Below are positions 1 through 40,101 of a DNA stretch of 40,101 nucleotides, in pieces. The DNA is from a virus. Location: positions 1-40,101 of IMG/VR virus record IMGVR_UViG_3300031247_000009; one strand, given 5' to 3'. The position numbers and the translations under genes are program-made. The notes under the pieces were generated by a model. It had not been told where the DNA came from. It saw only the letters and a list, made by a program, of their open reading frames with translations, and made no database searches. How positions within the stretch are numbered: the stretch's first letter is position 1; every line of letters starts with the position of its first letter.

Positions 1-118
1 GCATCTTTGCCAACACTGATGGCAAACAGCCACGTAAAGTTTTCGTAGCTGATAGCATTATTGCCATGCTAAGTGCCATAAATCCCATTTCACCATTTCG
101 GCCTGATTCTCGCATAAG
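1..118. repeat. Right half of a ~204-bp structured repeat (copy B)
   Basis: These 118 bases match 2002-2119 with only two visible substitutions (near 98 and 103). The match ends just before the leader of the first gene, where copy A also ends before its next gene. The segment holds the third and fourth conserved hairpins in part or whole and the tagcat/atgcta hairpin. Bases 1-43 also equal the last 43 bases of the window, so the left half of this copy is at 39972-40058 if the ends are joined. Confidence 0.93.
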
Positions 119-3664: not shown

Positions 3665-4423
3665 ATGGCAAATTACATCCCACAGGGTTGGCAATCATCG
3701 CCGCAAGGCAAGCTTTTGTACTCACAAAAAGTGGCAGAAATTGAGGTTGTGGTCCAGCGTCACGTGCGCAAGTTCAGACTGCAATCGATGCCGCCGGATG
3801 ACTTAGCACAGGAGGCCCGGCTGGCTGCTGCTTACGCGGTGGATACTTACAACAGCGGCCGCGGTAGTCTCATGGGATACGTGCACCACTTGGTGTACAA
3901 CGCGTTGGCGATGGTTGCGGCCGAATGTTTGGCCCAGCGTCGCACCCCGCACATCGAAGTCATTGAGAAAGTTGCTCAATACGATTGCGGCAAGATTACG
4001 CACATTAATGAACGGTGGGTGAAACGACCGTGCATGCATGTGGAAATGGACAACCGTGTGGAGGAGTCCACCAGTTGGGAGAACGAGAATCCAGAAATTG
4101 CCATGCTGGAGGCTGAGGACGGAACACACAGAGGCTCACAGCTGTCTGAGATCGCGATGCGTCGTGCCATGAATAAGGCCACGCTTTCCCCGGATGGCAA
4201 AGTTGTTGCGCAGCTGATGCTTTCCAAGCCGCCGCAACTGGCTGTGCTTGCGCGCAATCTCACAGGCCAATGGGGAAGGATTACCCACACAGCCATAGCT
4301 CGACACCAAGAATGGACAAATAAGCGGGCCAACGCGGCATTGCTTGAGCTGAAGCAATTCACCAAAACGCAAAACGCAAATAAATCCGCTGAAGACACCC
4401 ATGGTATACAGCAACCCGAATGA
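3665..4423 (+). CDS. Divergent sigma-factor-like protein
   Basis: 252 residues. Residues ~45-80 (MPPDDLAQEARLAAAYAVDT, then GRGSLMGYVHHLVYNAL) follow the pattern of sigma70 region 2: the D-D-L-x-Q-E core-binding helix followed by the -10 recognition segment. The C-terminal region (LAVLARNLTGQWGRITHTAI with following ALLELK) could hold a helix-turn-helix in the place of region 4. If so, the phage would redirect host RNA polymerase to its own middle or late promoters. The start lies nine bases after the previous stop. The match is by pattern and the protein is clearly divergent; a DNA-binding protein of another kind cannot be excluded. Confidence 0.55.
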   Translation: MANYIPQGWQSSPQGKLLYSQKVAEIEVVVQRHVRKFRLQSMPPDDLAQEARLAAAYAVDTYNSGRGSLMGYVHHLVYNALAMVAAECLAQRRTPHIEVIEKVAQYDCGKITHINERWVKRPCMHVEMDNRVEESTSWENENPEIAMLEAEDGTHRGSQLSEIAMRRAMNKATLSPDGKVVAQLMLSKPPQLAVLARNLTGQWGRITHTAIARHQEWTNKRANAALLELKQFTKTQNANKSAEDTHGIQQPE

Positions 4424-5441
4424 GATGGATGCGGCGTTTGTCCGCAATGTGATAGCGCAACACAGCTTGGATCCTTCTCCAAAACACGGGTTTCATGCCA
4501 GCCCGTTGTATTGGCAGCAGTCCATCGAATGGCGCAGATGCATTGAGGAGTACGATTGGGGAAGTGTTGTGTTTTTGTCGGATTTGAAGCGTGGCCAGCA
4601 CTTCACAGTCGTGATCTTGGGGCAATTCGACGCAACGACTGGCAAGCTAAAGCAAAGCACGTCATCCGTGGGGCATCTATCCAAGATCGTTCCTTGGTAC
4701 CTGGATTTGGTTGCCGGGTTGTCTGAGGCGCAACAGCCTAGCAACGTTGATATTCCGCCTTGCCTCGGGTTCAACGAGCCTGATCATGTTTGCATCGGCG
4801 GGGTGAATCCGACTACGAAATTGACGGAGCCTGCTTGCGCTTGGCTTTCACGCTGCTCGGCTTTGCGAATGGTCGCAGAGGCAACCAATCGCAACCAACA
4901 AGACATGTTGAAGAGCAAGTCACCCGAGCAAATCGTTCAACTCACAGAGCGCTTATTGGCGCAAAAGACGGCCAAGCAAACGCCAAAGACGAAGGCCAAA
5001 GCAGTGCCGGTGACACTGAAAGTCGAGCACACATCAGGCCGCTTCCCGGATGCCGTGAAACAAGTCGCAACAATCATGGTCGAGGTGGCCAAGCTCTGCG
5101 ACGTTGGGGTTGCGCATGATGCAAACTCAGCATCGCCCGGTGAGTTGTACATGATTGATCGCACCACCAAGTCCGATTACGTGACTGTGTATCAATCCAT
5201 CGCCGCGGGCGCCAAGCGTCGCCCGCTTGCATCCTGGCGCATCAGGACTCGGGATCCGGGATTTCGTGTGCAATTGCCGATGCTGAAGGAAGATCCTTTG
5301 CTGCAAAGCATTGTCAAGGCAGACATCGTCGTTTGGAACGACGGGGCATTCAAGTGTTGCGTCAACGATGTCATTCCGGGGCAACTTCGCATGGACAACA
5401 TTCGCGCCATCATGTGTCATTTGGCAAAGGCGCCACGATGA
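4401..5441 (+). CDS. Hypothetical protein, 346 residues
   Basis: A soluble protein in two apparent parts. Residues 1-~165 contain several Cys and aromatic residues (HGFHASPLYWQQSIEWRRC). A Lys/Thr-rich linker (LLAQKTAKQTPKTKAKAV) leads to a C-terminal ~140-residue domain (TSGRFPDAVKQVATIMVEVA). The gene overlaps the sigma-like gene by 23 bases, with an alternative ATG at 4425 just after that stop. Its own stop overlaps the flavoprotein start (ATGA). I recognise no family. Confidence 0.65.
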   Translation: MVYSNPNEMDAAFVRNVIAQHSLDPSPKHGFHASPLYWQQSIEWRRCIEEYDWGSVVFLSDLKRGQHFTVVILGQFDATTGKLKQSTSSVGHLSKIVPWYLDLVAGLSEAQQPSNVDIPPCLGFNEPDHVCIGGVNPTTKLTEPACAWLSRCSALRMVAEATNRNQQDMLKSKSPEQIVQLTERLLAQKTAKQTPKTKAKAVPVTLKVEHTSGRFPDAVKQVATIMVEVAKLCDVGVAHDANSASPGELYMIDRTTKSDYVTVYQSIAAGAKRRPLASWRIRTRDPGFRVQLPMLKEDPLLQSIVKADIVVWNDGAFKCCVNDVIPGQLRMDNIRAIMCHLAKAPR

Positions 5442-6439
5442 GAGTTGTAATTTTGGGTGGCGGGATCTCGGGCTTGATTGCGGCCCATGTCTTGAAAAAC
5501 AAGGGCGGAGTCGATGTCACGCTGATTGAGGCCGGCGACAAATTGGGCGGAACGTTCGCGGCTGGTGGTCTGAAGTACCTGCGGGCGACCAAGGACGCGT
5601 CAGACATGTTGGACGCTTTGGGGATCCATTACAGTTTCCATCTGCCGCGTGGGGCCATTTACATTGACGGAGTTGCAAAGAGCCATCCGGAGTGTCTCAT
5701 GGGGATGAGCACCTTGGATCGGTTGCAGATTCAGACGGCACACTGGAAGAAAACGAGGAAATCACTGGAAGGGTTTCGTGCCGACTGCATGAATGATCCT
5801 GGGTCGAAGCACAATTGGTCGGCTCGGTGTGATAATGCGGTCGTGGTTGCTGCTCTGGCAAAACAAGCCGAGGAGTCTTGCAAGGTTCACACCTTCGCTC
5901 GGGTGCGACGGGTTGATGCCAAAAGCGTCACGGTCCATGATCGAAATGTGCCTTATGATTTCTTGATCAACACGCTGCCGCTGCCCGTTCTCAGGAAGAT
6001 TGTGCCTTTCACCGTCCAATCGGGCATCCCGGACACGTCTTGCAACAAGCTCAGCATTGTGGACGTTAGCGGCATCCAAACCGACATGTGGTGGGATTAC
6101 CTGTACACGCCGCTGGCTTCGACCGTGTCACGGATCACCAAGACGAGTCCGACCACGGCCCAACTTGAGATCCCTTGGGGCAAGCCCGATGCGCCCAAGC
6201 CACTCGACACCGATGATTTGATGCCGCTGCTTTCGCATCGTTCCGATCGCGACATGTTTGTACAGGAGACATTGTCAGAGCCAAGGGTGTTGAATGGGCA
6301 CCTCAAACCGTTGCCCGGCCCATTGGTGTTGCCGAAGAACTGGCTCATGCTTGGACGCTTCGCCGAATGGGATCCGCGCTCCACTGCCGAAAAGTCATTG
6401 ACAAAGATGATTCAGTGGGCACATGATCAACGCTTCTGA
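5438..6439 (+). CDS. FAD/NAD(P)-binding oxidoreductase (amine oxidase / UDP-galactopyranose mutase-like fold)
   Basis: 333 residues. The N-terminus MRVVILGGGISGLIAAHVL is a textbook Rossmann dinucleotide-binding motif, followed by the acidic ribose-binding end of strand 2 (VTLIEAGDKLGG). The C-terminal LMLGRFAEWDPRSTAEKSL resembles the second FAD-contact motif of protoporphyrinogen oxidase, amine oxidase and UDP-galactopyranose mutase-type enzymes. It starts by ATGA overlap with the upstream gene and precedes nucleotide-metabolism genes. The substrate is unknown. In this setting it could oxidise or reduce a modified nucleotide or its precursor, but a sugar substrate is also possible. Confidence 0.75.
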   Translation: MRVVILGGGISGLIAAHVLKNKGGVDVTLIEAGDKLGGTFAAGGLKYLRATKDASDMLDALGIHYSFHLPRGAIYIDGVAKSHPECLMGMSTLDRLQIQTAHWKKTRKSLEGFRADCMNDPGSKHNWSARCDNAVVVAALAKQAEESCKVHTFARVRRVDAKSVTVHDRNVPYDFLINTLPLPVLRKIVPFTVQSGIPDTSCNKLSIVDVSGIQTDMWWDYLYTPLASTVSRITKTSPTTAQLEIPWGKPDAPKPLDTDDLMPLLSHRSDRDMFVQETLSEPRVLNGHLKPLPGPLVLPKNWLMLGRFAEWDPRSTAEKSLTKMIQWAHDQRF

Positions 6440-6548
6440 CAAGTTCTATGATGAGCACCGTCGAGCGCTAAGTGACGCGTTGAAAGGCAATAGAAATGGA
6501 GTCGTAAGACGTGGGAGACTTGGAAAAAATATGGCGGCGGCAAATTGA
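6423..6548 (+). CDS. Possible very small protein in the gap before the pyrophosphohydrolase gene
   Basis: A 41-codon frame (MINASDKFYDEHRRALSDAL at its start) overlaps the end of the flavoprotein gene by 17 bases and the start of the next gene by 38 bases. It fills a gap that is otherwise empty. It has no recognised family and only a weak ribosome binding site, so it may be spurious. Confidence 0.25.
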   Translation: MINASDKFYDEHRRALSDALKGNRNGVVRRGRLGKNMAAAN

Positions 6549-7440
6549 GCAGCAATCTCTCTGGCATTCATGGGAAGGATTGTCAGACGATGATAAGAGC
6601 GCGCTGACCAAGGAACTGATCCTTGGGATGTATGAGGAGCTTGGCGAGCTTCAAAAGCGCTTGGACATCGACAAGTATCACATCATCATGAAGGCTGTCA
6701 AGCGTCACCCTGCCGCCGTTGCGGAAGACGGCATTGACGTGATGAAATACCTCGTTGCGCTGATGGCATTGCACGGGGTGACACCCGAGATGATGTTGGT
6801 TGAGTTCAATCGCAAGACCATGGTGGTTGACGCCAAATGGAAGGCGCAATGTGACAGCTTGCGCGATGTTGACGTGTTGCTCTGCGACTTGGACGATTGC
6901 GTGGCTGATTGGGCGCATGGCTTTCCGGCTTGGACTGCTGCTCGCGGCATCGACATCAACGGCGCGCCCGAAGGCTCCTTGGAACAAGAAAAGGCCAAAG
7001 AGCGCTTCTATGCTGAGGGTGGATTCCTGACGCTTGGGACCATTTCTGGTGCCGTCAACACGCTTTCGAGATGGCGCGGCCGAACTCATGAATATTGCGC
7101 CCATGCTGTTAGGGATCGGCGCCTCATCATGGTGACGTCAAGACCGTACCGCCGGCACACCCGCGTGTACGCAGACACCATGGAATGGTGTGACAAGGTA
7201 GGATTGGGTCAAGATCATATCATTTTCACCAACGACAAGGCCGATGCCGTCCGTCAGATGCAACCTGCTCGAATCATCGCGATGATCGAGGATCGGCACA
7301 AATATGCATCCGAATTGGCAGCCATCGGTGTGAAGGTGTTGAAACTGCCGGGGTGGGATGACATAGAGAACTTCAAACATGCCAACGTACTTGGGTGTCG
7401 CAATTGGGACGACATCAAAGCAGCGTTGGCAAATATATGA
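6511..7440 (+). CDS. Fusion: all-alpha NTP pyrophosphohydrolase (dUTPase/MazG-like) + HAD 5'-nucleotidase
   Basis: 309 residues in two domains. Residues ~30-105 carry the metal-binding pattern of dimeric dUTPase/MazG proteins: E42-E43-x-x-E46 and a second helix with E72-D73-x-x-D76. Residues ~118-305 form a HAD phosphatase: D126-L-D128 (motif I), the VTSRP segment (motif II), a Lys in FTNDKADAV (motif III) and IEDRHKYAS (motif IV), close to 5'(3')-deoxyribonucleotidases. Together the domains could cleave a dNTP to dNMP and then to the nucleoside, depleting one nucleotide from the pool. The start is GTG with GGAG nine bases upstream. It lies just before thyX. The substrate (dUTP, dCTP or other) is not readable from sequence. 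Confidence 0.75.
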   Translation: MGDLEKIWRRQIEQQSLWHSWEGLSDDDKSALTKELILGMYEELGELQKRLDIDKYHIIMKAVKRHPAAVAEDGIDVMKYLVALMALHGVTPEMMLVEFNRKTMVVDAKWKAQCDSLRDVDVLLCDLDDCVADWAHGFPAWTAARGIDINGAPEGSLEQEKAKERFYAEGGFLTLGTISGAVNTLSRWRGRTHEYCAHAVRDRRLIMVTSRPYRRHTRVYADTMEWCDKVGLGQDHIIFTNDKADAVRQMQPARIIAMIEDRHKYASELAAIGVKVLKLPGWDDIENFKHANVLGCRNWDDIKAALANI

Positions 7441-7458
7441 ACTGAAAGGTCCAATGCC

Positions 7459-8445
7459 ATGAAACCGAAAGTCACGCTTGTTTCGTCTACGCCCGATCCG
7501 TTGGCAACCGTCTGGCTGCTCTGGGAAGCCAGCAAAGTTGACGGCCCGGTGCCGTTGTCCATCAAGGAAGTCCGCGACACCGTGCCGCATTCCAAGCTGG
7601 AAGAGCTGTTTTGGCAAGTCATCCGGCAGCAAATCCCCGTGGGAGAAGACATTGAGTTCACCTTCATGCTGGAGGGCGTCAGTGTCTCGTTCCGGGAGCA
7701 AATGGTACGACATCGAATTGGCGCCCGCGCTGGCGACAACTATGGCGTGGATACCATTCCGGACATTGCCACGTCAACCTGGTGGTCGCAATCGATGCGC
7801 ATCCAGGACATGAGCACGTTTGCGGATCGCGGGATGTATCGCGTGCCCGAGACGCTGAAGGGGAAAACATGCAAGCGTCCGGATGGTGATTCATTCCTTG
7901 CTGTGAATCGATTCGTGTCAACCATGCACCTTATCCAAGATGCCTACAAGGATTTGGTGGCAGCCGGGGTGCCCATGGAAGATGCGCGTGACCTCATCCC
8001 GCTCGGCGCCCAACACCGCATCAGCTGGAAGTTGACGCTTCAAGCCTTGCTCCACATCTTGGGGAAGCGCGGTTGCTACATCCTTCAGATGGGGCTTTGG
8101 GGCCCGATCATTACCGGCATCGTGAACGAGCTTGCCGAAAAGGTGCACCCGATGTTTCGCAAAATCGTTCACCCGCCTTGCGTGGGGAATGATGGAAAAT
8201 TCAGCAGTTGCCTTTACCGACTGGAGAATTCCAGGCGCGTGGACGGATCCGACGCACACAGCCCTTGCCCCTTGTATCTGTGCTCCGATGAAGAAGGTTC
8301 GAAGCATGTGCCTGGTGCGACTCCTGATGATCGGCTTGTTGCGCTTCGCAAGACTCGCAACATCATCCCTCGTCAGGATGAGATGTTGGAAAGAGCTGAA
8401 GAGTATCGTGCGTTGTGGGGCTGTGATCCGTATCTGTGGAAGTGA
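7459..8445 (+). CDS. thyX: ThyX-like flavin-dependent thymidylate synthase with altered signature motif
   Basis: 328 residues, longer than the usual ~220-250. ThyX-type features are QMVRHR (residues ~82-86), an SQSMRI segment (~110-115) standing where the family has SxRY, and the late helix EDARDLIPLGAQHRISWKL followed by LLHILGKRGC. In the canonical motif RHRxxSxxxxSxRY the two parts are adjacent; here ~23 residues lie between RHR and SQSMR and the first Ser is absent. The family methylates dUMP using methylene-THF, NADPH and FAD. The changed motif may mark a different product, such as 5-hydroxymethyl-dUMP, or an ordinary but divergent enzyme. It sits between the pyrophosphohydrolase fusion and the aminotransferase. 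Confidence 0.8.
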   Translation: MKPKVTLVSSTPDPLATVWLLWEASKVDGPVPLSIKEVRDTVPHSKLEELFWQVIRQQIPVGEDIEFTFMLEGVSVSFREQMVRHRIGARAGDNYGVDTIPDIATSTWWSQSMRIQDMSTFADRGMYRVPETLKGKTCKRPDGDSFLAVNRFVSTMHLIQDAYKDLVAAGVPMEDARDLIPLGAQHRISWKLTLQALLHILGKRGCYILQMGLWGPIITGIVNELAEKVHPMFRKIVHPPCVGNDGKFSSCLYRLENSRRVDGSDAHSPCPLYLCSDEEGSKHVPGATPDDRLVALRKTRNIIPRQDEMLERAEEYRALWGCDPYLWK

Positions 8446-8493
8446 TGCTTCGGACGTACGATTCATCAGAGATGGCTAGACGTGGCAGGCTGA

Positions 8494-8646
8494 CCGCTGC
8501 TGGCGGGAGTCTGTCCCATCCACCATCCGAACGAGAACACAGAGAGACGACAGGCGGATGCAAAACATGATCAGCGCGCCATCACTGCTGGCTGGGGTGT
8601 TGTTCGCATTTGGGAACATGATTTGAAGGAAGCGCAAAGAGGGTAA
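8494..8646 (+). pseudogene. C-terminal remnant resembling a Vsr/DUF559-type endonuclease
   Basis: The gap between thyX and the aminotransferase gene contains a frame ending ITAGWGVVRIWEHDLKEA, a very good match to the C-terminus of Vsr-like very-short-patch and DUF559 nucleases (GW-V-R-WEH-L). Upstream, CPIHHPNENTERRQADAKHD also loosely fits the basic helix of that family. There is no start codon except possible CTGs, and an in-frame stop lies at 8491-8493. The catalytic N-terminal part is missing. It looks like a decayed, once-mobile or repair nuclease gene. Confidence 0.5.
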
Positions 8647-8648
8647 CA

Positions 8649-9845
8649 ATGACGGCCAACCATCTAATGGATACAGTTGAGTTCAGAAATTTCAACATCG
8701 TTGGGGCTGATGGGCCGTACTTGGTACGCGCAGACGGCCGTAAGCTGCTCGACTTGTTCACGGATACAGGCACAGCATCTTTGGGAACGTCTTGGGCAAG
8801 CATCAACGAAGCCATGTCATGTCTGGCCGATTTCCATTTTGGTGCCCATGCTCCAAACTTGTACACCAACCCATTGCGCAATTATGTCAGCGAGCGGGTC
8901 TGCAAGCTCATGGGCGCGAGTCGTGTGTTTTGGTGCAATAGCGGAACCGAGGCCGTGGAAGCTGCCATCAAGATGGCGCGCTTGTACCATTACAAGCAGG
9001 CAAAGTTGTCAAACCCGCCAAGGAACAACATTTTGTCCGTGTCGGGCGGCTTTCACGGCCGGACGTACGGTGCCATTGCTGCGGGTGATGGGCCATCTTA
9101 TCACTATGAAGGCATGGGCCCCTATCCAGGCGGCTTCATCCACGCGCCCATCGAGCGCATGTGTGACATGATCATCAGCCTTGGACCATCGTTGGCCGCG
9201 GTGATCATGGCACCTGTGATGGGTAACAATGATGTCGTGCCGTACGAAACCGAAGTGTTGCAGAGCATCCAAGCCATGGCCCACAGCGTTGGCAGCTTGC
9301 TCATCTTCGATGAGGTTCAGACGGGCTCGGGACGCACTGGCGCACCGACTTACGCACAACGCGTTGGGCTTGAGCCCGACATCACCTGTCTGGCCAAGGG
9401 CATCGGCATGGGCTTCCCTGTGGGGCTGGCCTTGGCGCGTGGCAACGCGGGCAACGCGTTCACGCCCGGCACCCATTTCAGCACATTCGGAGGCAACCCA
9501 ATGTCCAATGCGTTCGTGAACGTGATGTGCTCTTGGTTGGAGAATCAAAGCAACTTGGACAGCGTGATCTCGGTCGGATCCTTCACCAAGTTTGCATTGG
9601 AAACTCGCGACTCATTCCCAGACATGGGGCAAGTGCGAGCAGTCGGCATGATGATTGCTTGTGATGTGCCTGTTGACCGTCGCATGTTGGAGCGCGAGGC
9701 ATTGGCCGAGGGCCTGCTGCTCCCAACGTTCAGAGATGGGCCGGGCACCATCAAAATCACGCCGCCGTTGAATATCGGCATGCCAACCATGGCCATGGCC
9801 ATGGAATCATTGTCGCGCGCCTACAAACGTTGCTTGGAGTTTTAG
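8649..9845 (+). CDS. PLP-dependent class III aminotransferase
   Basis: 398 residues, the normal full length for the acetylornithine/ornithine/4-aminobutyrate aminotransferase family. Motifs in order are NSGTEAVEAAIKMAR (phosphate-binding), SGGFHGRTYGA, LLIFDEVQTGSGRTG (the Asp that contacts the PLP ring nitrogen), LAKGIGMGFPVG (Schiff-base Lys at about residue 250) and STFGGNPMSNA. All catalytic elements are intact. AGAGGG precedes the ATG at good spacing. Such enzymes are unusual in phages. Here it lies in a nucleotide cluster next to a P-loop kinase, which raises the possibility that it supplies or installs an amino group on a modified base precursor. The amino donor and acceptor are unknown. 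Confidence 0.88.
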   Translation: MTANHLMDTVEFRNFNIVGADGPYLVRADGRKLLDLFTDTGTASLGTSWASINEAMSCLADFHFGAHAPNLYTNPLRNYVSERVCKLMGASRVFWCNSGTEAVEAAIKMARLYHYKQAKLSNPPRNNILSVSGGFHGRTYGAIAAGDGPSYHYEGMGPYPGGFIHAPIERMCDMIISLGPSLAAVIMAPVMGNNDVVPYETEVLQSIQAMAHSVGSLLIFDEVQTGSGRTGAPTYAQRVGLEPDITCLAKGIGMGFPVGLALARGNAGNAFTPGTHFSTFGGNPMSNAFVNVMCSWLENQSNLDSVISVGSFTKFALETRDSFPDMGQVRAVGMMIACDVPVDRRMLEREALAEGLLLPTFRDGPGTIKITPPLNIGMPTMAMAMESLSRAYKRCLEF

Positions 9846-9849
9846 CCCA

Positions 9850-10452
9850 ATGGCAGTGGTGATTTTCGAAGGCGCATCAGGCGTTGGCAAGGGAACAGTC
9901 GCCAAGAGTTTGGCGAATTTCATCCATGCGCCCGTGTACCGCCCATTCAGGCGCGCACCCGACAGCCACCAGCCCGGCGACGCATACCCCGAGTTGAAAG
10001 ACATCCCCATGCGGGTCAATACCTGGCGCGAGGATCTTGTTGTTGCCGATTTGCTGGGGGCAACTCATTGCACCGACGTCATCCTTGACAGGTCGCTGAT
10101 CTCAGGGTTGGCTTACGATGATGATATGTGGGACGGGATGCCGCCAAGCTCCTACGGCAACGAGCCATGGTTGAGCACGACAAGGCTGAGCAAGAATGGC
10201 TTGGCTGCTCTGCGACTTTGGGTGAAGCTGTTGTCCGGGAACCATACCATTTTGGTGTTGATGCGACAACCATACGAGGTGCGCAGGGCACGCGGTGGAC
10301 GCGTCGGTGATTGGGAGGCTAAAGCCATTGATCATGTCGTTTGCCACATCCCCACGGGCAACATCCGGGTGATTATTGCGAATGGGCAAAGCCCTGAAGA
10401 GATAATCGAACGGGTGATGATTCATGGCGAAACACGTGCAGCCAGTTTCTGA
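9850..10452 (+). CDS. P-loop (deoxy)nucleoside monophosphate kinase-like protein
   Basis: 200 residues. The Walker A motif GASGVGKGT is at residues 8-16. A DRS-type motif (VILDRSLISGLAYD) follows near residue 80, as in thymidylate kinase, and an Arg-rich LID-like segment (RQPYEVRRARGGR) lies near residue 140. This pattern fits the thymidylate/dNMP kinase family, which phosphorylates dNMP to dNDP. It follows the aminotransferase by four bases and overlaps the next gene by 29 bases. In a phage with an unusual base it could act on a modified dNMP, or be a 5-hydroxymethyluracil DNA kinase-type enzyme. The substrate cannot be read from sequence. Confidence 0.75.
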   Translation: MAVVIFEGASGVGKGTVAKSLANFIHAPVYRPFRRAPDSHQPGDAYPELKDIPMRVNTWREDLVVADLLGATHCTDVILDRSLISGLAYDDDMWDGMPPSSYGNEPWLSTTRLSKNGLAALRLWVKLLSGNHTILVLMRQPYEVRRARGGRVGDWEAKAIDHVVCHIPTGNIRVIIANGQSPEEIIERVMIHGETRAASF

Positions 10453-14682: not shown

Positions 14683-15129
14683 ATGGCAGGTATTCACAAA
14701 GCAGCACGAGCGGCCGGCATCAACGACATGCAGGCAAAGTCAATGTTCGCAGCCATCTTGTCGAGCGTAGCAGATGGCGAACCCGTGATGGTCAAGGACT
14801 TCGGCACCTTCAGGCTGAAGCATGCGGCTGCTCGTTCCATCACCAGCCCGCAGATTCCAGGCGGCAAGATGGACATCCCAGCACGCGTGATGCTGAAGTT
14901 CCAACCGGCACCCTACGTGAAACGCTTCCTCAATGGCGGCGTGGCTGAGGGCGAAGTCACGGAGGGCGAAGAAAACGAAGAAGAGGAAGCCGTTGTTGAG
15001 ACGGAAGCCGCGGCCGAAGTCACCAAGCCTGAGAAGGTCACCAAGCCGACATCGCCAGCCAAGGCAACTGCGCCTGCCAAGAATGCGGTCAAGCTTGCTG
15101 CCGCAAAGAAGGCGCCAACCAAGGAGTAA
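14683..15129 (+). CDS. HU/IHF-family DNA-binding protein with charged tail
   Basis: 148 residues. Residues 1-~85 follow the HU/IHF fold: a helical N-terminus, the VMVKDFGTFRLKHAAAR strand pair, the arm, and IPARVMLKFQPAPYVKRFLN. Beyond the usual ~90 residues is an acidic stretch (EGEVTEGEENEEEEAVVETE) and then a Lys/Ala/Pro-rich tail (KATAPAKNAVKLAAAKKAP) like a histone H1 tail. The family bends and packages DNA and assists replication initiation and recombination. AGGAG precedes the ATG. The gene follows dnaE by 27 bases. The two-part tail is unusual and may mediate protein contacts and condensation. Confidence 0.85.
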   Translation: MAGIHKAARAAGINDMQAKSMFAAILSSVADGEPVMVKDFGTFRLKHAAARSITSPQIPGGKMDIPARVMLKFQPAPYVKRFLNGGVAEGEVTEGEENEEEEAVVETEAAAEVTKPEKVTKPTSPAKATAPAKNAVKLAAAKKAPTKE

Positions 15130-25377: not shown

Positions 25378-25612
25378 AAATCCTGTAATCATCAGGATCA
25401 AATCGACATTTTGCCCACATATTTGCTTGGATTGCTACTGGGAACATCGTTACAAGAGTCTGCTGGTGCAACACAAGTTGTTGCGCATGAAGTTCTTTCC
25501 CAAGTCAAACAACCATAAGGTGGTGCGCCAGCTCATGCGTGCTGAACGTCAAGATGCGGGCGATGAGTACGATGGGTTGCCGCCTGATGTTTTTGACGTC
25601 ATGGATCGGTGA
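25370..25612 (+). CDS. Small hypothetical protein with N-terminal cysteines
   Basis: 80 residues. CPHICLDCYWEH near the N-terminus holds three Cys and a His that could bind one zinc. The C-terminal half is charged and helical. It overlaps the exonuclease gene by eight bases and abuts the glycosylase gene. No family is recognised. Confidence 0.55.
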   Translation: MLENPVIIRIKSTFCPHICLDCYWEHRYKSLLVQHKLLRMKFFPKSNNHKVVRQLMRAERQDAGDEYDGLPPDVFDVMDR

Positions 25613-26211
25613 TGATTGAACGTATCGAATCACTTTGGGCTGATTGCCAACGTTGCCCGCTCCACGCACTTCGCCAACGTGTTGTGATCGGCACCGGGCC
25701 CGTGCCTTGTGACCTGATGCTCATCGGCGAAGCACCTGGTGCTGAAGAAGACGAGCGCGGGATCCCGTTCATCGGGAAGGCTGGCCGCCTCATGCGCGAG
25801 CTTGGCACTGAGGCAGGCTTGGACATGTCCATGGACGCCTACATCACGAACGTCTGCGGCTGCCGCCCGCCGCAGAACCGGCAGCCGCATGACAGCGAGA
25901 TGGTTGCATGCTCGCCGCGGCTCGATGCGCTGCTACAAGCCGTACAACCCAAAGCGGTGTTGCTGCTCGGCTCGACAGCCTTTCGGGCTTTGACGGGCGG
26001 CAATGCTCCCATCACTCGAATGCGCGGGACCGAGATGGAAACTGGTTGGACGTGGAAGGGTAAAAGATCAATCATTCCAGCCATTCCCACCTATCATCCG
26101 GCATACCTTTTACGCGTCGCTGACCCAAAGCGCAAAGAAGAGTTCATCAAGGACATGAAACTAGCATCTGAACTCGCGCATGGATCAAGAGCAAACACCC
26201 ACTCCGACTGA
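25612..26211 (+). CDS. Family 4 uracil-DNA glycosylase
   Basis: 199 residues. CQRC at the N-terminus and two later Cys (NVCGCRPP and MVACSPR) fit the four ligands of the family's [4Fe-4S] cluster. GEAPGAEEDERGIPFIGKAG is the uracil-pocket and water-activating motif, and TYHPAYLLR is the late DNA-intercalation motif. The enzyme removes uracil from DNA. With the dUTPase-like domain and ThyX it implies that this element excludes uracil, or polices a related base. Start is ATG 25612, overlapping the previous stop; a GTG at 25609 is possible. Confidence 0.9.
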   Translation: MIERIESLWADCQRCPLHALRQRVVIGTGPVPCDLMLIGEAPGAEEDERGIPFIGKAGRLMRELGTEAGLDMSMDAYITNVCGCRPPQNRQPHDSEMVACSPRLDALLQAVQPKAVLLLGSTAFRALTGGNAPITRMRGTEMETGWTWKGKRSIIPAIPTYHPAYLLRVADPKRKEEFIKDMKLASELAHGSRANTHSD

Positions 26212-33027: not shown

Positions 33028-33226
33028 TGGCCAAACCCGCAAAGACACCCCATAAGGCGGAACCCAACCCGGTGAAAGCCCAATGCCTGCCTAGGTGAAT
33101 GTTGGTTGCTGTATAGGACTGAATGTGTGGCCAAACCCACAAGACACCCCATAAGGTGGAACCCAACCCGGTGAATGTTGGTTGCCTGCCTAGGTGAATG
33201 TTGGTTGTTTTGCCATATCCACAATG
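33028..33226. repeat. ~100-bp tandem direct repeat (iteron-like)
   Basis: Unit 1 (33028-33127) and unit 2 (33128-33226) share tggccaaaccc, gacaccccataagg, ggaacccaacccggtgaa and gcctgcctaggtgaatgttg in the same order with few changes. gaatgttggttg occurs a third time at 33173-33184, and a third tggtcaaaccc starts at 33231. The spacing and conservation resemble origin iterons or a binding array. Confidence 0.75.
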
Positions 33227-36997: not shown

Positions 36998-37291
36998 ATG
37001 GCAAGGTCAAAGAAAATTGGTGGCTTCACGGTTGAGAAGAACACCAACGGCAAACTCTACATCCACGATTCCAATGGTGTTACGGTTGGCAGGTTGTGCC
37101 AGCTATCAGGTGAGATCTTCGCGCCATCATACGAGGCCAACAGCTTCATGGCGGTGGGCACGGTGCCAAGCGAGACGTTCAGGCAATGGCGCACCCGAGC
37201 CTATGATGCCTTCGCAATCCTGATACCTGATGACTTCAAGCCAGATTGGGACAAGCCGAAAAGGAGACATGATGGGAACGCAGATCAATAA
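36998..37291 (+). CDS. Member 2 of the ETFxxWRxR family
   Basis: 97 residues. The first half is beta-rich (FTVEKNTNGKLYIHDSNG) and the second contains VPSETFRQWRTRAYDAFAIL and a basic tail. Same layout as the proteins at 36552 and 38872. Overlaps the Nmad5-like gene by 20 bases. Confidence 0.65.
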   Translation: MARSKKIGGFTVEKNTNGKLYIHDSNGVTVGRLCQLSGEIFAPSYEANSFMAVGTVPSETFRQWRTRAYDAFAILIPDDFKPDWDKPKRRHDGNADQ

Positions 37292-37817
37292 GTTCAGCAG
37301 ATTCGAGTTGGTGGGCAAGATCGTCTCGGCCAAGTTTGCGAACGAGCGTGCGGCAATCGATAAAGTGTCAGACGGTCTAGCGCACCGCATCGTCAAGTCA
37401 AATCTCACCCCTGGTGGCAGCGCGGGCGAACATCTGCTCGCAAACATCCCGCCAAATTGGCTGCTTGAAGTTGACGGCATATACGTCAGGTTCACCAACG
37501 GTGATGGGATCAGGGTGCATTTCAAAGAGCCACATCGCATTCCGGCTTACATGGAAGAGATCACGATCGTGGATCCTCCGCTTCGCAAGGCAATCAAGGC
37601 ATTGTCCCGGAAGCAACGTGCGATGAATTTGAAGCAACGTGACTTCAAGAAAGTTGTGAAAGACACGTTGGAAGGTTTCCGGACCTATGAGAGCTTGTTG
37701 AAGGCTTGGCCCGAGATCACCAGTCTTGTGCCGACCATGGCGGCCTACCGCCACCCCGTGAAACGTCAAACGGTGCCCAAGATCGTGCCGCCCGAATTGC
37801 GGGCAATCAAGGTCTGA
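37272..37817 (+). CDS. Nmad5-like protein (nucleotide-modification-associated domain)
   Basis: 181 residues with AAGGAG five bases before the ATG. An N-terminal helix (FELVGKIVSAKFANERAAID), the mid segment HLLANIPPNWLLEVDGIYVR, and a late helix ending WPEITSLVPTM follow the outline of the phage Nmad5 family, which was named for its association with DNA-base-modification loci. The assignment is by remembered pattern and is tentative. It is coupled to a DUF1643 gene, which strengthens the idea of a shared role in nucleotide or base chemistry. Confidence 0.5.
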   Translation: MGTQINKFSRFELVGKIVSAKFANERAAIDKVSDGLAHRIVKSNLTPGGSAGEHLLANIPPNWLLEVDGIYVRFTNGDGIRVHFKEPHRIPAYMEEITIVDPPLRKAIKALSRKQRAMNLKQRDFKKVVKDTLEGFRTYESLLKAWPEITSLVPTMAAYRHPVKRQTVPKIVPPELRAIKV

Positions 37818-38365
37818 TGGCGCCTTGGTGGGAACAACTGCGGACACCTAATGGCGCGGTCATCTCGCCATGCGGGCGCTACCGCTTGCTGCTCTGGCGC
37901 TCGTTGTTTGATTACGGCCAACCATTGGGCTTTCATATGAGCAACCCGTCCAAGGCCGACGCAACCGTGTCAGATCCGACAATTCGCCGATGTTTTGGCT
38001 TTGCTGCTCGTGAGGGCGCCAGCGGCATCATCGTCACCAACTTGTCACCATGGAGGGCGACGGATCCGCGCGACTTGGAGCTGGCAGCGATTTCCGGTGA
38101 GGATGTCTTGCTCAGCGCAGCGAACGAGATTGCATACAGGTTGTCGTTGAGGTTGTCGGACAAGATGATCTTGGCATGGGGCGCGAACGTCCGACGGTGG
38201 ATGGGGTGCGCTGTTCAGAGCGTCCGGCGCGACACCAAGCCGGGCAAGCTGTGGTGCCTCGGAACGACAACAGCCGGAATGCCGCGTCACCCGCTGATGC
38301 TGCGCTCTGACGCAGAGTTGATTGCCGTGAGAGGTATTTCGAGTGATGGCCAGCGCATAGAATAA
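37817..38365 (+). CDS. DUF1643 protein
   Basis: 182 residues. RYRLLLWRSLFDYGQPLGFH, MSNPSKADATVSDPTIRRC, then GIIVTNLSPWRATDPRDL and a late WGANVRRW are the signature blocks of DUF1643. The conserved NPS-A-----DPT-R and N-----AT-P motifs suggest a nucleotide- or base-binding pocket similar to that of glycosylase-like folds, but no activity is established. Starts on the last base of the preceding stop. Confidence 0.85.
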   Translation: MAPWWEQLRTPNGAVISPCGRYRLLLWRSLFDYGQPLGFHMSNPSKADATVSDPTIRRCFGFAAREGASGIIVTNLSPWRATDPRDLELAAISGEDVLLSAANEIAYRLSLRLSDKMILAWGANVRRWMGCAVQSVRRDTKPGKLWCLGTTTAGMPRHPLMLRSDAELIAVRGISSDGQRIE

Positions 38366-39729: not shown

Positions 39730-39977
39730 GCACCGACGACAGCCCGAGGCCCGAAGCAGTAAAGCAACAACCATTGGTCATCGACCGCGATTTGCTCTCA
39801 GGCCTCATCCGGGCATTTCAGAGTACGTGCGAGGACAGGTACAACCGTTGGGCTGTGCATGACTGCACGATTTGCTTCACATCGTACAAGGATTCAGTTT
39901 GCACCATGGGCGTCTGCCCCGATTGCTTCGACCGGATCCTCAAGTTGCGTGAGCAAATCGAAGCCACCAATCCTTGA
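39726..39977 (+). CDS. Small cysteine-rich protein ending in the structured repeat
   Basis: 83 residues. CTICFTSYKDSVCTMGVCPDC has five Cys in a RING- or zinc-ribbon-like spacing. The last codons and the stop (ccttga) are the first bases of the 204-bp repeat, exactly as for the TSCPD gene at 1523-1921. The two proteins themselves are unrelated. Confidence 0.6.
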   Translation: MCTDDSPRPEAVKQQPLVIDRDLLSGLIRAFQSTCEDRYNRWAVHDCTICFTSYKDSVCTMGVCPDCFDRILKLREQIEATNP

Positions 39978-40101
39978 CCGCCGTTTTTCGTCGCTTTGGA
40001 TGAGATGGCGACGTTTTACGGCGCTTTGCCAATTCCTTTGGCATTTCATGCGCGAAGCGCATCTTTGCCAACACTGATGGCAAACAGCCACGTAAAGTTT
40101 T
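39972..40101. repeat. Left half of the structured repeat (copy B), reaching the window end
   Basis: Matches 1916-2044 with a few substitutions and one extra base in the first hairpin loop. The last 43 bases (40059-40101) equal bases 1-43. Joined to the window start it makes a full ~205-bp copy. Confidence 0.93.
39979..40023 (+). terminator. Conserved T4/T4 internal-loop hairpin, copy B
   Basis: Same stems as 1923-1966 (cgccgt/acggcg and cgtcgc/gcgacg), with the loop changed from 12 to 13 bases. Follows a stop codon directly. Confidence 0.5.

Follow-up and report, generated by a model that had tools for sequence, protein, structure and literature searches.

A conserved five-gene set around an altered ThyX in uncultivated phages, possibly for a pyrimidine modified before replication

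The cassette and its setting

The stretch of DNA analysed here (the window, 40,101 nucleotides) corresponds to one record of an uncultivated bacterial virus and lies inside a 102.5-kb record at 99.99-100% identity, wrapped round that record's ends. The original prediction named five consecutive genes as a possible pathway for a hypermodified pyrimidine, and five open reading frames of the families it named are indeed present, consecutive and on the plus strand. These genes and the features around them are:

4401..5441, + strand: gene without assigned function, directly 5' of FAD and with no Pfam match; candidate sixth member
5438..6439, + strand: FAD, a small flavoprotein of amine-oxidase-like fold, 333 aa from the ATG at 5438 (Pfam Amino_oxidase/NAD_binding_8)
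6511..7440, + strand: MazG-like NTP pyrophosphohydrolase fused to a HAD 5'(3')-deoxyribonucleotidase, 309 aa (PHROG 2643)
7459..8445, + strand: variant ThyX, 328 aa (Pfam Thy1, 1e-17)
7708..7716, + strand: RHR codons of the ThyX signature, residues 84-86, invariant in 28 sequences
7717..7791, + strand: expanded active-site loop, RHR to Ser112, 25 residues vs 7
8649..9845, + strand: class-III PLP aminotransferase, 398 aa (Pfam Aminotran_3, 5e-67)
9850..10452, + strand: P-loop nucleotide kinase, dTMP-kinase-like, 200 aa
10882..14655, + strand: DNA polymerase III alpha, 1257 aa, 3' of the cassette
14683..15129, + strand: HU-type DNA-binding protein, context only (Pfam Bac_DNA_binding)
25609-26211: uracil-DNA glycosylase
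37230-37817: Nmad5 (Pfam match)
37706-38365: DUF1643 (Pfam match)

The ATG of FAD overlaps the stop of the preceding gene by 4 bases, and the dinucleotide-binding glycines are kept in 15/15 cassette members. Its top Foldseek matches are L-amino acid and L-lysine oxidases at TM-scores of 0.3-0.4, a ranking taken only as "amine-oxidase-like fold" given a weak model (pLDDT 61.7, 6 sequences). The fusion protein by itself has no Pfam match; a 6-sequence profile matches 5'(3')-deoxyribonucleotidase (2e-6) and MazG-like (1e-5) structures of the 2q73, 2i7d type, with a weak likeness to dCTP pyrophosphatase as well (0.035). Both halves retain key residues, D126 and D128 of the HAD domain in 15/15 and E43 and D76 of the MazG region in 14/15 and 15/15, respectively. 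The aminotransferase falls in the class-III fold family and is nearest to acetylornithine aminotransferase (2eh6, 2e-52), with Lys250 and Asp221, presumably its catalytic residues, in 15/15. Its score is below the curated threshold of each of the 25 NCBIfam families listed, including those for ArgD (264.9 vs 372 and 259.3 vs 410 bits), which the enzyme of locus L005 misses too. The kinase has a weak, below-cut-off match to Pfam Thymidylate_kin (0.004), its 6-sequence profile matches dTMP kinase (2pbr, 3e-7), and its P-loop G13/K14 and its D80-R81 are present in 15/15.

Several neighbours bear on the cassette. The BLAST cluster that contains the gene at 4401..5441, and also takes in the sigma-like gene adjoining it, is found in 13/15 cassette loci, immediately before FAD in 11. 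DNA polymerase III alpha lies downstream of the cassette in 14/15 loci, occasionally with one small gene between, and is a candidate user of a modified dNTP; the HU-type family is present in 9/28 loci. A dCMP deaminase, a source of dUMP, occurs in 8/16 records with the variant ThyX, and the other half show none. Uracil-DNA glycosylase, found in 11/16 of these records, was rejected as a signature and is context only, because SP-15 and 13/14 control genomes carry one too. The Nmad5-like and DUF1643 proteins noticed elsewhere in the window are genuine Pfam matches, but a part for Nmad5 in the pathway does not hold up, as it occurs in just 1/16 records, the window's own lineage. A Pfam scan of eight further open reading frames of record G001 picked up an MT-A70 methyltransferase and a DNA ligase, but nothing of the glycosyltransferase or radical-SAM kind.

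An altered active site in a conserved gene set

The changed ThyX motif is genuine: 25 residues, not 7, lie between RHR and the conserved Ser. The variant resembles standard ThyX (FDTS, TIGR02170; T. maritima TM0449) in fold, in RHR, and in the retained Ser and Arg equivalent to Ser88 and Arg90; the AlphaFold model of the window's enzyme (pLDDT 86, with residues 87-90 and 93-108 below 50) matches T. maritima ThyX at a Foldseek E of 2e-8 and TMt of 0.69, placing it in the ThyX fold. It differs in that RHRX7S is replaced by RHR-X25-31-S in 28/28 variant members (18-24 extra residues), in that the catalytic Tyr (Tyr91) has become Ile, Leu or Val in 28/28, and in that the place of His53 holds another residue in 26/28 by our reading of the alignment. 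Scoring against NCBIfam thyX (TIGR02170) covered, among the variants, the window's copy, which at 54.3 bits fails the cut-off of 87.9. Neither change is diagnostic singly. An inserted loop was dismissed as proof in itself, as SP-15 gp9 retains His and Tyr despite a longer insertion at the same place, and the Tyr is also missing from four cultured-phage ThyXs without the loop (PB1, Wifcevirus, PVA7 and LIS04); only the combination of loop and Tyr loss marks the variant branch. A C-terminal Cys triad, considered as a new metal site, was set aside, since PB1 and Wifcevirus have a similar Cys tail. One cassette record, G012, also encodes a standard ThyX (109.4 bits, above the TIGR02170 cut-off). 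This is the only second ThyX among 16 records, so that in the other records dTMP might in principle still be the product of the variant; ThyA is found in 0/16.

The search for this gene set in related genomes that the original prediction proposed was run, and all five genes occur in 15 of 28 distinct variant-ThyX loci. One further locus is cut by a contig end, and 12/28 have none of the other four genes, although the flanking sequence of L030, L035, L038 and L039 among these is short on one side or both. The 28 remain from 36 initial ThyX loci after leaving out L002 and L003 (= L004), L007, L010 and L011 (copies of L006, L009 and L005), and L022, L036 and L041 (near-copies by coordinates and scores). 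The 15 full loci and the cut one are separated from the rest of the ThyX tree by a branch with support 100/98. The reciprocal search through FAD recovers the full set in 21/25 loci run, near-copies included and L016-L018, identical to the window, left out. Six full-set lineages were found through FAD only and missed through ThyX; together with the 15 they make 21 lineages, as judged by contig and ThyX stretches and not by script. The set is kept at low identity and with its genes reordered: ThyX precedes the aminotransferase in 12/15 and follows it in 3/15, and the linkage stays. The loci counts and the altered ThyX thus give good support to a distinct, conserved set of nucleotide-level enzymes around a ThyX relative.

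FAD also occurs apart from the full set. L086 has it directly before DNA polymerase III, with the other four genes absent within 8 kb flanks; the sole ThyX of this lineage, to which L078 also seems to belong, lies elsewhere and has a short loop, and FAD may therefore act outside the pathway. In the 63-kb record of L064, FAD sits with the fusion at the edge of the contig, and the search of that record found no ThyX. The lack of a radical-SAM enzyme stands for the cassette and does not extend to its relatives, for in 7/12 distinct non-cassette loci a radical-SAM-family gene lies beside or within a few genes of ThyX (the domain was tested on one locus, L040). Radical SAM is accordingly absent from the cassette, not from this ThyX family.

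Beyond these viruses, tblastn against 50,697 cultured-phage records gave no match for FAD or the fusion (E 1e-5) or for the kinase (E 0.01). Among the best 40 of 64 matches, the aminotransferase shows 26-33% identity to ordinary-looking class-III enzymes; some of the matches listed sit in bacterial-assembly records. Scans of bacterial contigs, each on two short patterns that leave absence unproven, gave no ThyX or FAD relative. The literature searched, which did not include the main paper on the hypermodification pathway, holds no description of this gene set.

A possible pathway and its alternatives

The likeliest reading, to which we give about even odds, is that the cassette makes a deoxyuridine nucleotide modified at C5 and bearing an amino group, and does so before replication. 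In this scheme the fusion's MazG-like half would convert dUTP or dTTP to the monophosphate, and its nucleotidase half would remove the competing canonical dNMP. The variant ThyX, with the Ser and Arg of the dUMP site retained and a long, flexible loop in place of the short one, would add a one-carbon unit to C5 of dUMP through its flavin and stop short of methyl, most simply giving 5-hydroxymethyl-dUMP. FAD would then oxidise the side chain to an aldehyde and the aminotransferase aminate it, with 5-aminomethyl-dUMP as the simplest product, after which the kinase would phosphorylate the modified dNMP towards the triphosphate that the phage DNA polymerase III would use. Each reaction, the order of steps, the product and its presence in DNA are what we infer from gene content. 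The oxidation fits badly, because enzymes of the amine-oxidase fold usually act on amines, not alcohols. MnmEG, which uses flavin and folate, offers a likeness. It places an aminomethyl-type group on C5 of uracil, according to the available text of PMC9626948; it differs in acting on tRNA with different proteins, and is an analogy only. The text available for PMC11550810 lists 5-aminomethyluracil as a phage base, and describes dNTPs with basic groups as moderate to poor polymerase substrates.

The same enzymes might also work in another order, a reading we consider unlikely. Here the aminotransferase and flavoprotein would begin by turning an amino acid or diamine into an aldehyde, which the enlarged ThyX loop would admit and load on the flavin instead of methylene-folate; alkylation of dUMP would then yield a longer chain. 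This would suit the amine-oxidase-like fold of FAD (a weak model) and the nearest aminotransferases, which are of the acetylornithine kind and make semialdehydes, but it requires two amine-removing enzymes. ThyX can accept free formaldehyde by way of a carbinolamine on its flavin, presumably helped by Ser88 and Tyr91 (PMC8316439, in the part available), a precedent for the likeliest reading as well as for this one. The folate-stacking His (PMC11940539, likewise in part) is not at the equivalent place in 26/28 variants; use of larger aldehydes was not found in the literature searched, much of it available as partial text. A similar route may, by analogy, hold for the dihydroxypentyl side chain of SP-15, whose base is made before DNA synthesis (PMC5977210, available text), but SP-15 gp130 has diverged too far for its membership to be demonstrated.

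Two further readings are improbable to much the same degree. The nucleotide might not be destined for DNA, or its base might be cytosine, so that the product would be a small molecule, an RNA modification or a counter-defence metabolite: incorporation is itself conjectural, and the fusion's slight resemblance to dCTP pyrophosphatase points the same way. Against this stand the polymerase downstream in 14/15 loci and the action of ThyX relatives on dUMP. PADLOC, moreover, gave two marginal matches only, to Rossmann or P-loop ends, and a defence role was dismissed on the same result. The genes might instead serve ordinary metabolism, as a divergent dTMP-making ThyX, a dTMP kinase, a dUTPase-like enzyme and an unrelated auxiliary aminotransferase and oxidase, given that every gene has an ordinary relative, that 274 cultured-phage records have a ThyX match, and that 15/16 records have this ThyX alone and no ThyA. 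The retention of the full set in 21 reordered, low-identity lineages, the active site altered in 28/28, the co-resident standard ThyX of G012, and the scores of the window's aminotransferase and ThyX below curated cut-offs for ordinary functions all argue otherwise.

It is most improbable that the cassette is the known post-replicative thymidine-hypermodification pathway (M6, ViI, W-14, PaMx11 type). The broad classes are shared (a TS relative, a P-loop kinase, a PLP enzyme in M6 and a flavoprotein in PaMx11), polymerase and dCMP deaminase are not far off in either, and the kinase profile has a short match in M6 (41 positions, E 3e-4). However, the combination is unlike known systems, as the original prediction held: the two defining enzymes, 5-hmdU DNA kinase (PF18723) and amino acid:DNA transferase (PF18724), are each absent from 15/15 cassette records (10 of at least 80 kb, the remainder fragments), while the controls M6 and PaMx11 match both. 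The cassette's TS is ThyX-type, its kinase dTMP-kinase-like, and its PLP enzyme a class-III aminotransferase, whereas M6 gp052 is of the PALP family. Its flavoprotein is not recognisably related to PaMx11 gp47, which we take to be the side-chain flavoprotein of the known pathway: hhalign gives a probability of 3.5% over 42 columns, with no homology past the Rossmann start, and FAD has no match in M6, W-14, ViI or PaMx11 at E up to 1. The known pathway acts on DNA through 5-hmdU DNA kinase (PMC6449724, available text). A hypermodified pyrimidine in the virus DNA is a prediction from sequence.

SP-15 and wider implications

Among pathways that supply a modified nucleotide before replication (SP-15, SPO1 type), the nearest parallel is SP-15 with its dihydroxypentyl-uracil. 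In the available text of PMC5977210, this phage has a pair of ThyX-type genes, and one of them is proposed to begin the modification. Its gp9 has a loop inserted after R-x-R, its relative LIS04 gives the lowest E-value for the window's ThyX among the best 40 of 274 cultured-phage records, and the cassette kinase profile matches its annotated deoxynucleoside kinase (5e-6). There are also differences. gp9 keeps His and Tyr and is otherwise standard-looking; gp130 aligns poorly here, without the RHR region, and was rejected as a family member, leaving analogy only. FAD gives a single weak partial match in SP-15 (E 0.007), tblastn finds no FAD, fusion or kinase match there, and the main text of PMC5977210, as available, does not mention an aminotransferase.

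A broader proposal, which we offer tentatively as possible rather than probable, is that the long-loop ThyX branch, unrecognised so far, is a general C5-pyrimidine "installer" of phages, attaching non-methyl carbon units to dUMP, with the SP-15 base perhaps built on the same principle. Such bases would form at the nucleotide level. The cassette clade pairs ThyX with an oxidase, an aminotransferase and a kinase; the ThyX of the sister group is often near a radical-SAM/SPASM enzyme, a nucleoside deoxyribosyltransferase and a YfbR-type nucleotidase.

If the proposed pathway is true, amino-bearing hypermodified bases would be reached by a second route, one that runs before replication and is based on ThyX and not on 5-hmdU DNA kinase, in uncultivated phages whose longest records reach 80-116 kb. 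ThyX would have evolved from making T to making bases other than T, flavin and PLP enzymes with nucleotides as substrates would be added to those known, and the unexplained biosynthesis of the SP-15 base would gain a testable lead. More broadly, the gene set is a marker by which phages of unknown DNA chemistry can be sought in sequence data.

A conserved five-gene cassette

The five open reading frames on which the original prediction of a hypermodified-pyrimidine pathway was built were all confirmed on a single strand, separated by 71, 18, 203, and 4 bases, and every family named for them is backed by profile and structure-sequence searches.

Cassette genes, window 5438-10452 (+), in order
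Flavoprotein: amine-oxidase-like
Fusion protein: MazG-like pyrophosphohydrolase plus 5'(3')-deoxyribonucleotidase
ThyX (7459-8445, 328 aa): ThyX family, long-loop variant
Aminotransferase: class III
Kinase: dTMP-kinase-like P-loop kinase

Searching viral contigs with the variant ThyX, as a single sequence and then as an alignment, returned 36 loci. The five protein profiles were applied to 31 of them, and removing near-copies left 28. The gene set, which was to be sought in related genomes, is complete in 15 of these 28. Twelve have the variant ThyX without the other four genes (four with short flanks), and in L028, whose contig begins about 1.1 kb ahead of ThyX, only ThyX, kinase, and polymerase are visible. 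Gene order is as listed in 12 of the 15 complete loci; the aminotransferase lies ahead of ThyX in L021, L024, and L032, as does the kinase in L032. Between the window and five other lineages, identity over tblastn-aligned parts is 48-51% for ThyX and only 26-42% for the other four proteins. In a maximum-likelihood tree, whose outgroups are long-branched, a branch with 100/98 support separates the 15 cassette loci and L028 from the other sequences.

A reciprocal search from the flavoprotein gave 28 loci, 25 of which were run against the cassette profiles. The full set is present in 21, including six lineages missed by the ThyX search (L071, L072, L076, L080, L081, L084), bringing complete cassette lineages to 21 by our count. 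Contig ends cut the set in L064 and L079, and L078 and L086, apparently one lineage, have the flavoprotein without the other four genes. In L086 DNA polymerase III directly follows the flavoprotein, the other four genes were not found within the locus flanks, and the record's only ThyX lies elsewhere with a short RTR-x8-S loop. No ThyX was found anywhere in the record of L064. The flavoprotein can thus persist without the cassette.

Several loci carry additional genes. A gene resembling SAM-dependent methyltransferases by eye, with only a weak Pfam match to DUF938 in the member examined (L005:7180-7983), is found next to or within the cassette in 5 of the 15 loci (L005, L006, L008, L026, L042) and may decorate the product. 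An NAD-epimerase-like frame (by eye; L025:8765-10180) between ThyX and aminotransferase and a sulfotransferase-family gene directly after the kinase (L009:10491-11264) are possible lineage-specific tailoring. The cassette kinase of L076 lies between two aminotransferase genes (L076:9925-12750). The DNA polymerase III alpha frames of L006 (10863-15734, 1623 aa) and L024 (9939-15911, 1990 aa) probably contain inteins; in L006 the extra stretch falls inside the conserved FFGSYGFN region, beginning with C and ending in HN-S.

The window, a single virus record of 40,101 bases, is contained in the 102,534-base record G001: 1-33749 matches G001 33749-1 at 100% identity and 33600-40101 matches G001 102534-96034 at 99.99%, the 150-base overlap of the matches being consistent with a genome of about 102.4 kb that is circular or circularly permuted. 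A dispersed repeat (about 90-230 bp, 84-100% identical) occurs at window 1-118, 1916-2148, and 39972-40101 and in G001 near 31.7, 33.7, 84.1, 90.1, and 96.0 kb; both window ends fall inside copies, which probably mark an assembly break. A 67-nt direct repeat (33042-33207; 90% identical, spacing 99) lies in a 2-kb region over which the GC skew becomes negative. The Nmad5 and DUF1643 frames (37230-38365) overlap as called, Nmad5 being confined among 16 records to the window's lineage, and an MT-A70-type methyltransferase lies at G001 80978-81529 in the same phage genome.

A remodelled ThyX

The variant ThyX is probably not an ordinary one. In all 28 sequences the RHR motif and the dUMP-site serine are separated by 25-31 residues, against the usual 7; equivalents of Thermotoga maritima Ser88 and Arg90 are kept, and the Tyr91 position is Ile, Leu, or Val. 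The His53 position, by our reading of the sequences, is non-His in 26, with His in L028 and L035 by ungapped count from the conserved Glu. This numbering is our mapping from PMC8316439, PMC11940539, and the alignment; those papers give Ser88 and Tyr91 a possible part in moving methylene off the flavin carbinolamine, and have His53 stacking against folate. The Tyr is also missing from the insertion-free ThyXs of PB1, Wifcevirus, Vibrio phage PVA7, and Listeria phage LIS04, and gp9 of Bacillus phage SP-15 (L048:5512-6348) carries a longer insertion at this position, after R-x-R, with His and Tyr retained. The long-loop branch is marked only by a combination of features, not by any single one. 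An AlphaFold model built with the 28 sequences has a ThyX fold (pLDDT 86), the inserted loop falling below 50. The window ThyX scores 54.3 bits, under the NCBI cut-off of 87.9. One cassette record, G012, has a second ThyX with RHRX7S, Tyr, and His that passes at 109.4 bits. Of 16 records, several of them fragments, the remaining 15 have the variant as the sole ThyX found, and ThyA was found in none of the 16.

Predicted chemistry

The nucleotide-level enzymes (pyrophosphohydrolase, nucleotidase, NMP-type kinase), together with the phage DNA polymerase III found downstream of the cassette in 14 of 15 loci, point to a precursor made before replication, a likeness to SP-15, whose dihydroxypentyl-uracil is reported in PMC5977210 to be made pre-replicatively. 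By the known thymidine route, as outlined in PMC6449724, 5-hmdU is incorporated and then modified in DNA by a 5-hmdU DNA kinase and transferases. The Pfam models of this kinase and of amino acid:DNA transferase hit both positive controls, M6 and PaMx11, and found nothing in 15 cassette records (10 of at least 80 kb); nor has the flavoprotein recognisable kinship to that of PaMx11. The kinase profile matches an SP-15 deoxynucleoside kinase (5e-6), a LIS04 kinase (3e-4), and M6 (41 positions, 3e-4), as expected of a general P-loop family.

Given that key residues are retained in the fusion, aminotransferase, and kinase, and dinucleotide-binding glycines in the flavoprotein, all the enzymes are predicted to be potentially active. 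If each has one job, an economical reading to which we give roughly even chances, the cassette would make an amino-bearing C5-modified dUMP: the fusion would clear and supply monophosphates, ThyX would place a one-carbon unit on dUMP C5 without full reduction, the flavoprotein would oxidise it, the aminotransferase would aminate the oxidised unit, and the kinase would phosphorylate the product, most simply 5-aminomethyl-dU. That base is among the phage bases listed in PMC11550810, where dNTPs bearing basic groups are moderate to poor yet usable polymerase substrates. Alternatively, the oxidase and aminotransferase might first make an aldehyde that ThyX attaches; the amine-oxidase fold suits this order better, and we rate it the less likely of the two.

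Novelty and the wider long-loop branch

Base modification in phages is already known, as are modified dNTPs made before replication. No published description of the five-gene set was found among the best matches of a literature search, and the flavoprotein, fusion, and kinase gave no tblastn hit across 50,697 phage records; as far as tested, the enzyme set is new, and so is the use it makes of a remodelled ThyX.

A radical-SAM enzyme, originally noted as lacking, is indeed absent from the cassette, but a radical-SAM-cluster gene lies near the long-loop ThyX in 7 of the 12 non-cassette loci (L027, L030, L034, L035, L039, L040, L044; Radical_SAM and SPASM domains tested on L040:3069-4088, which has no match among cultured phages). 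Genes of nucleoside deoxyribosyltransferase and YfbR-type nucleotidase clusters (one member of each tested) each occur in 7 of the 12, and a second, short-loop ThyX in four; one or another often accompanies the radical-SAM gene. This neighbourhood looks like a different modification cassette. Similarly, SP-15 encodes a nucleoside deoxyribosyltransferase three genes ahead of ThyX gp130, as well as a 5'-nucleotidase carrying the annotation PF12917, now YfbR-like. Its other ThyX, gp9, which the authors of the SP-15 study regard as the ordinary one, has the long insertion described above; the question of which of the two begins the modification seems to merit another look. More broadly, the neighbours in this sister group and in SP-15 hint that more than one modification is served by long-loop ThyXs.
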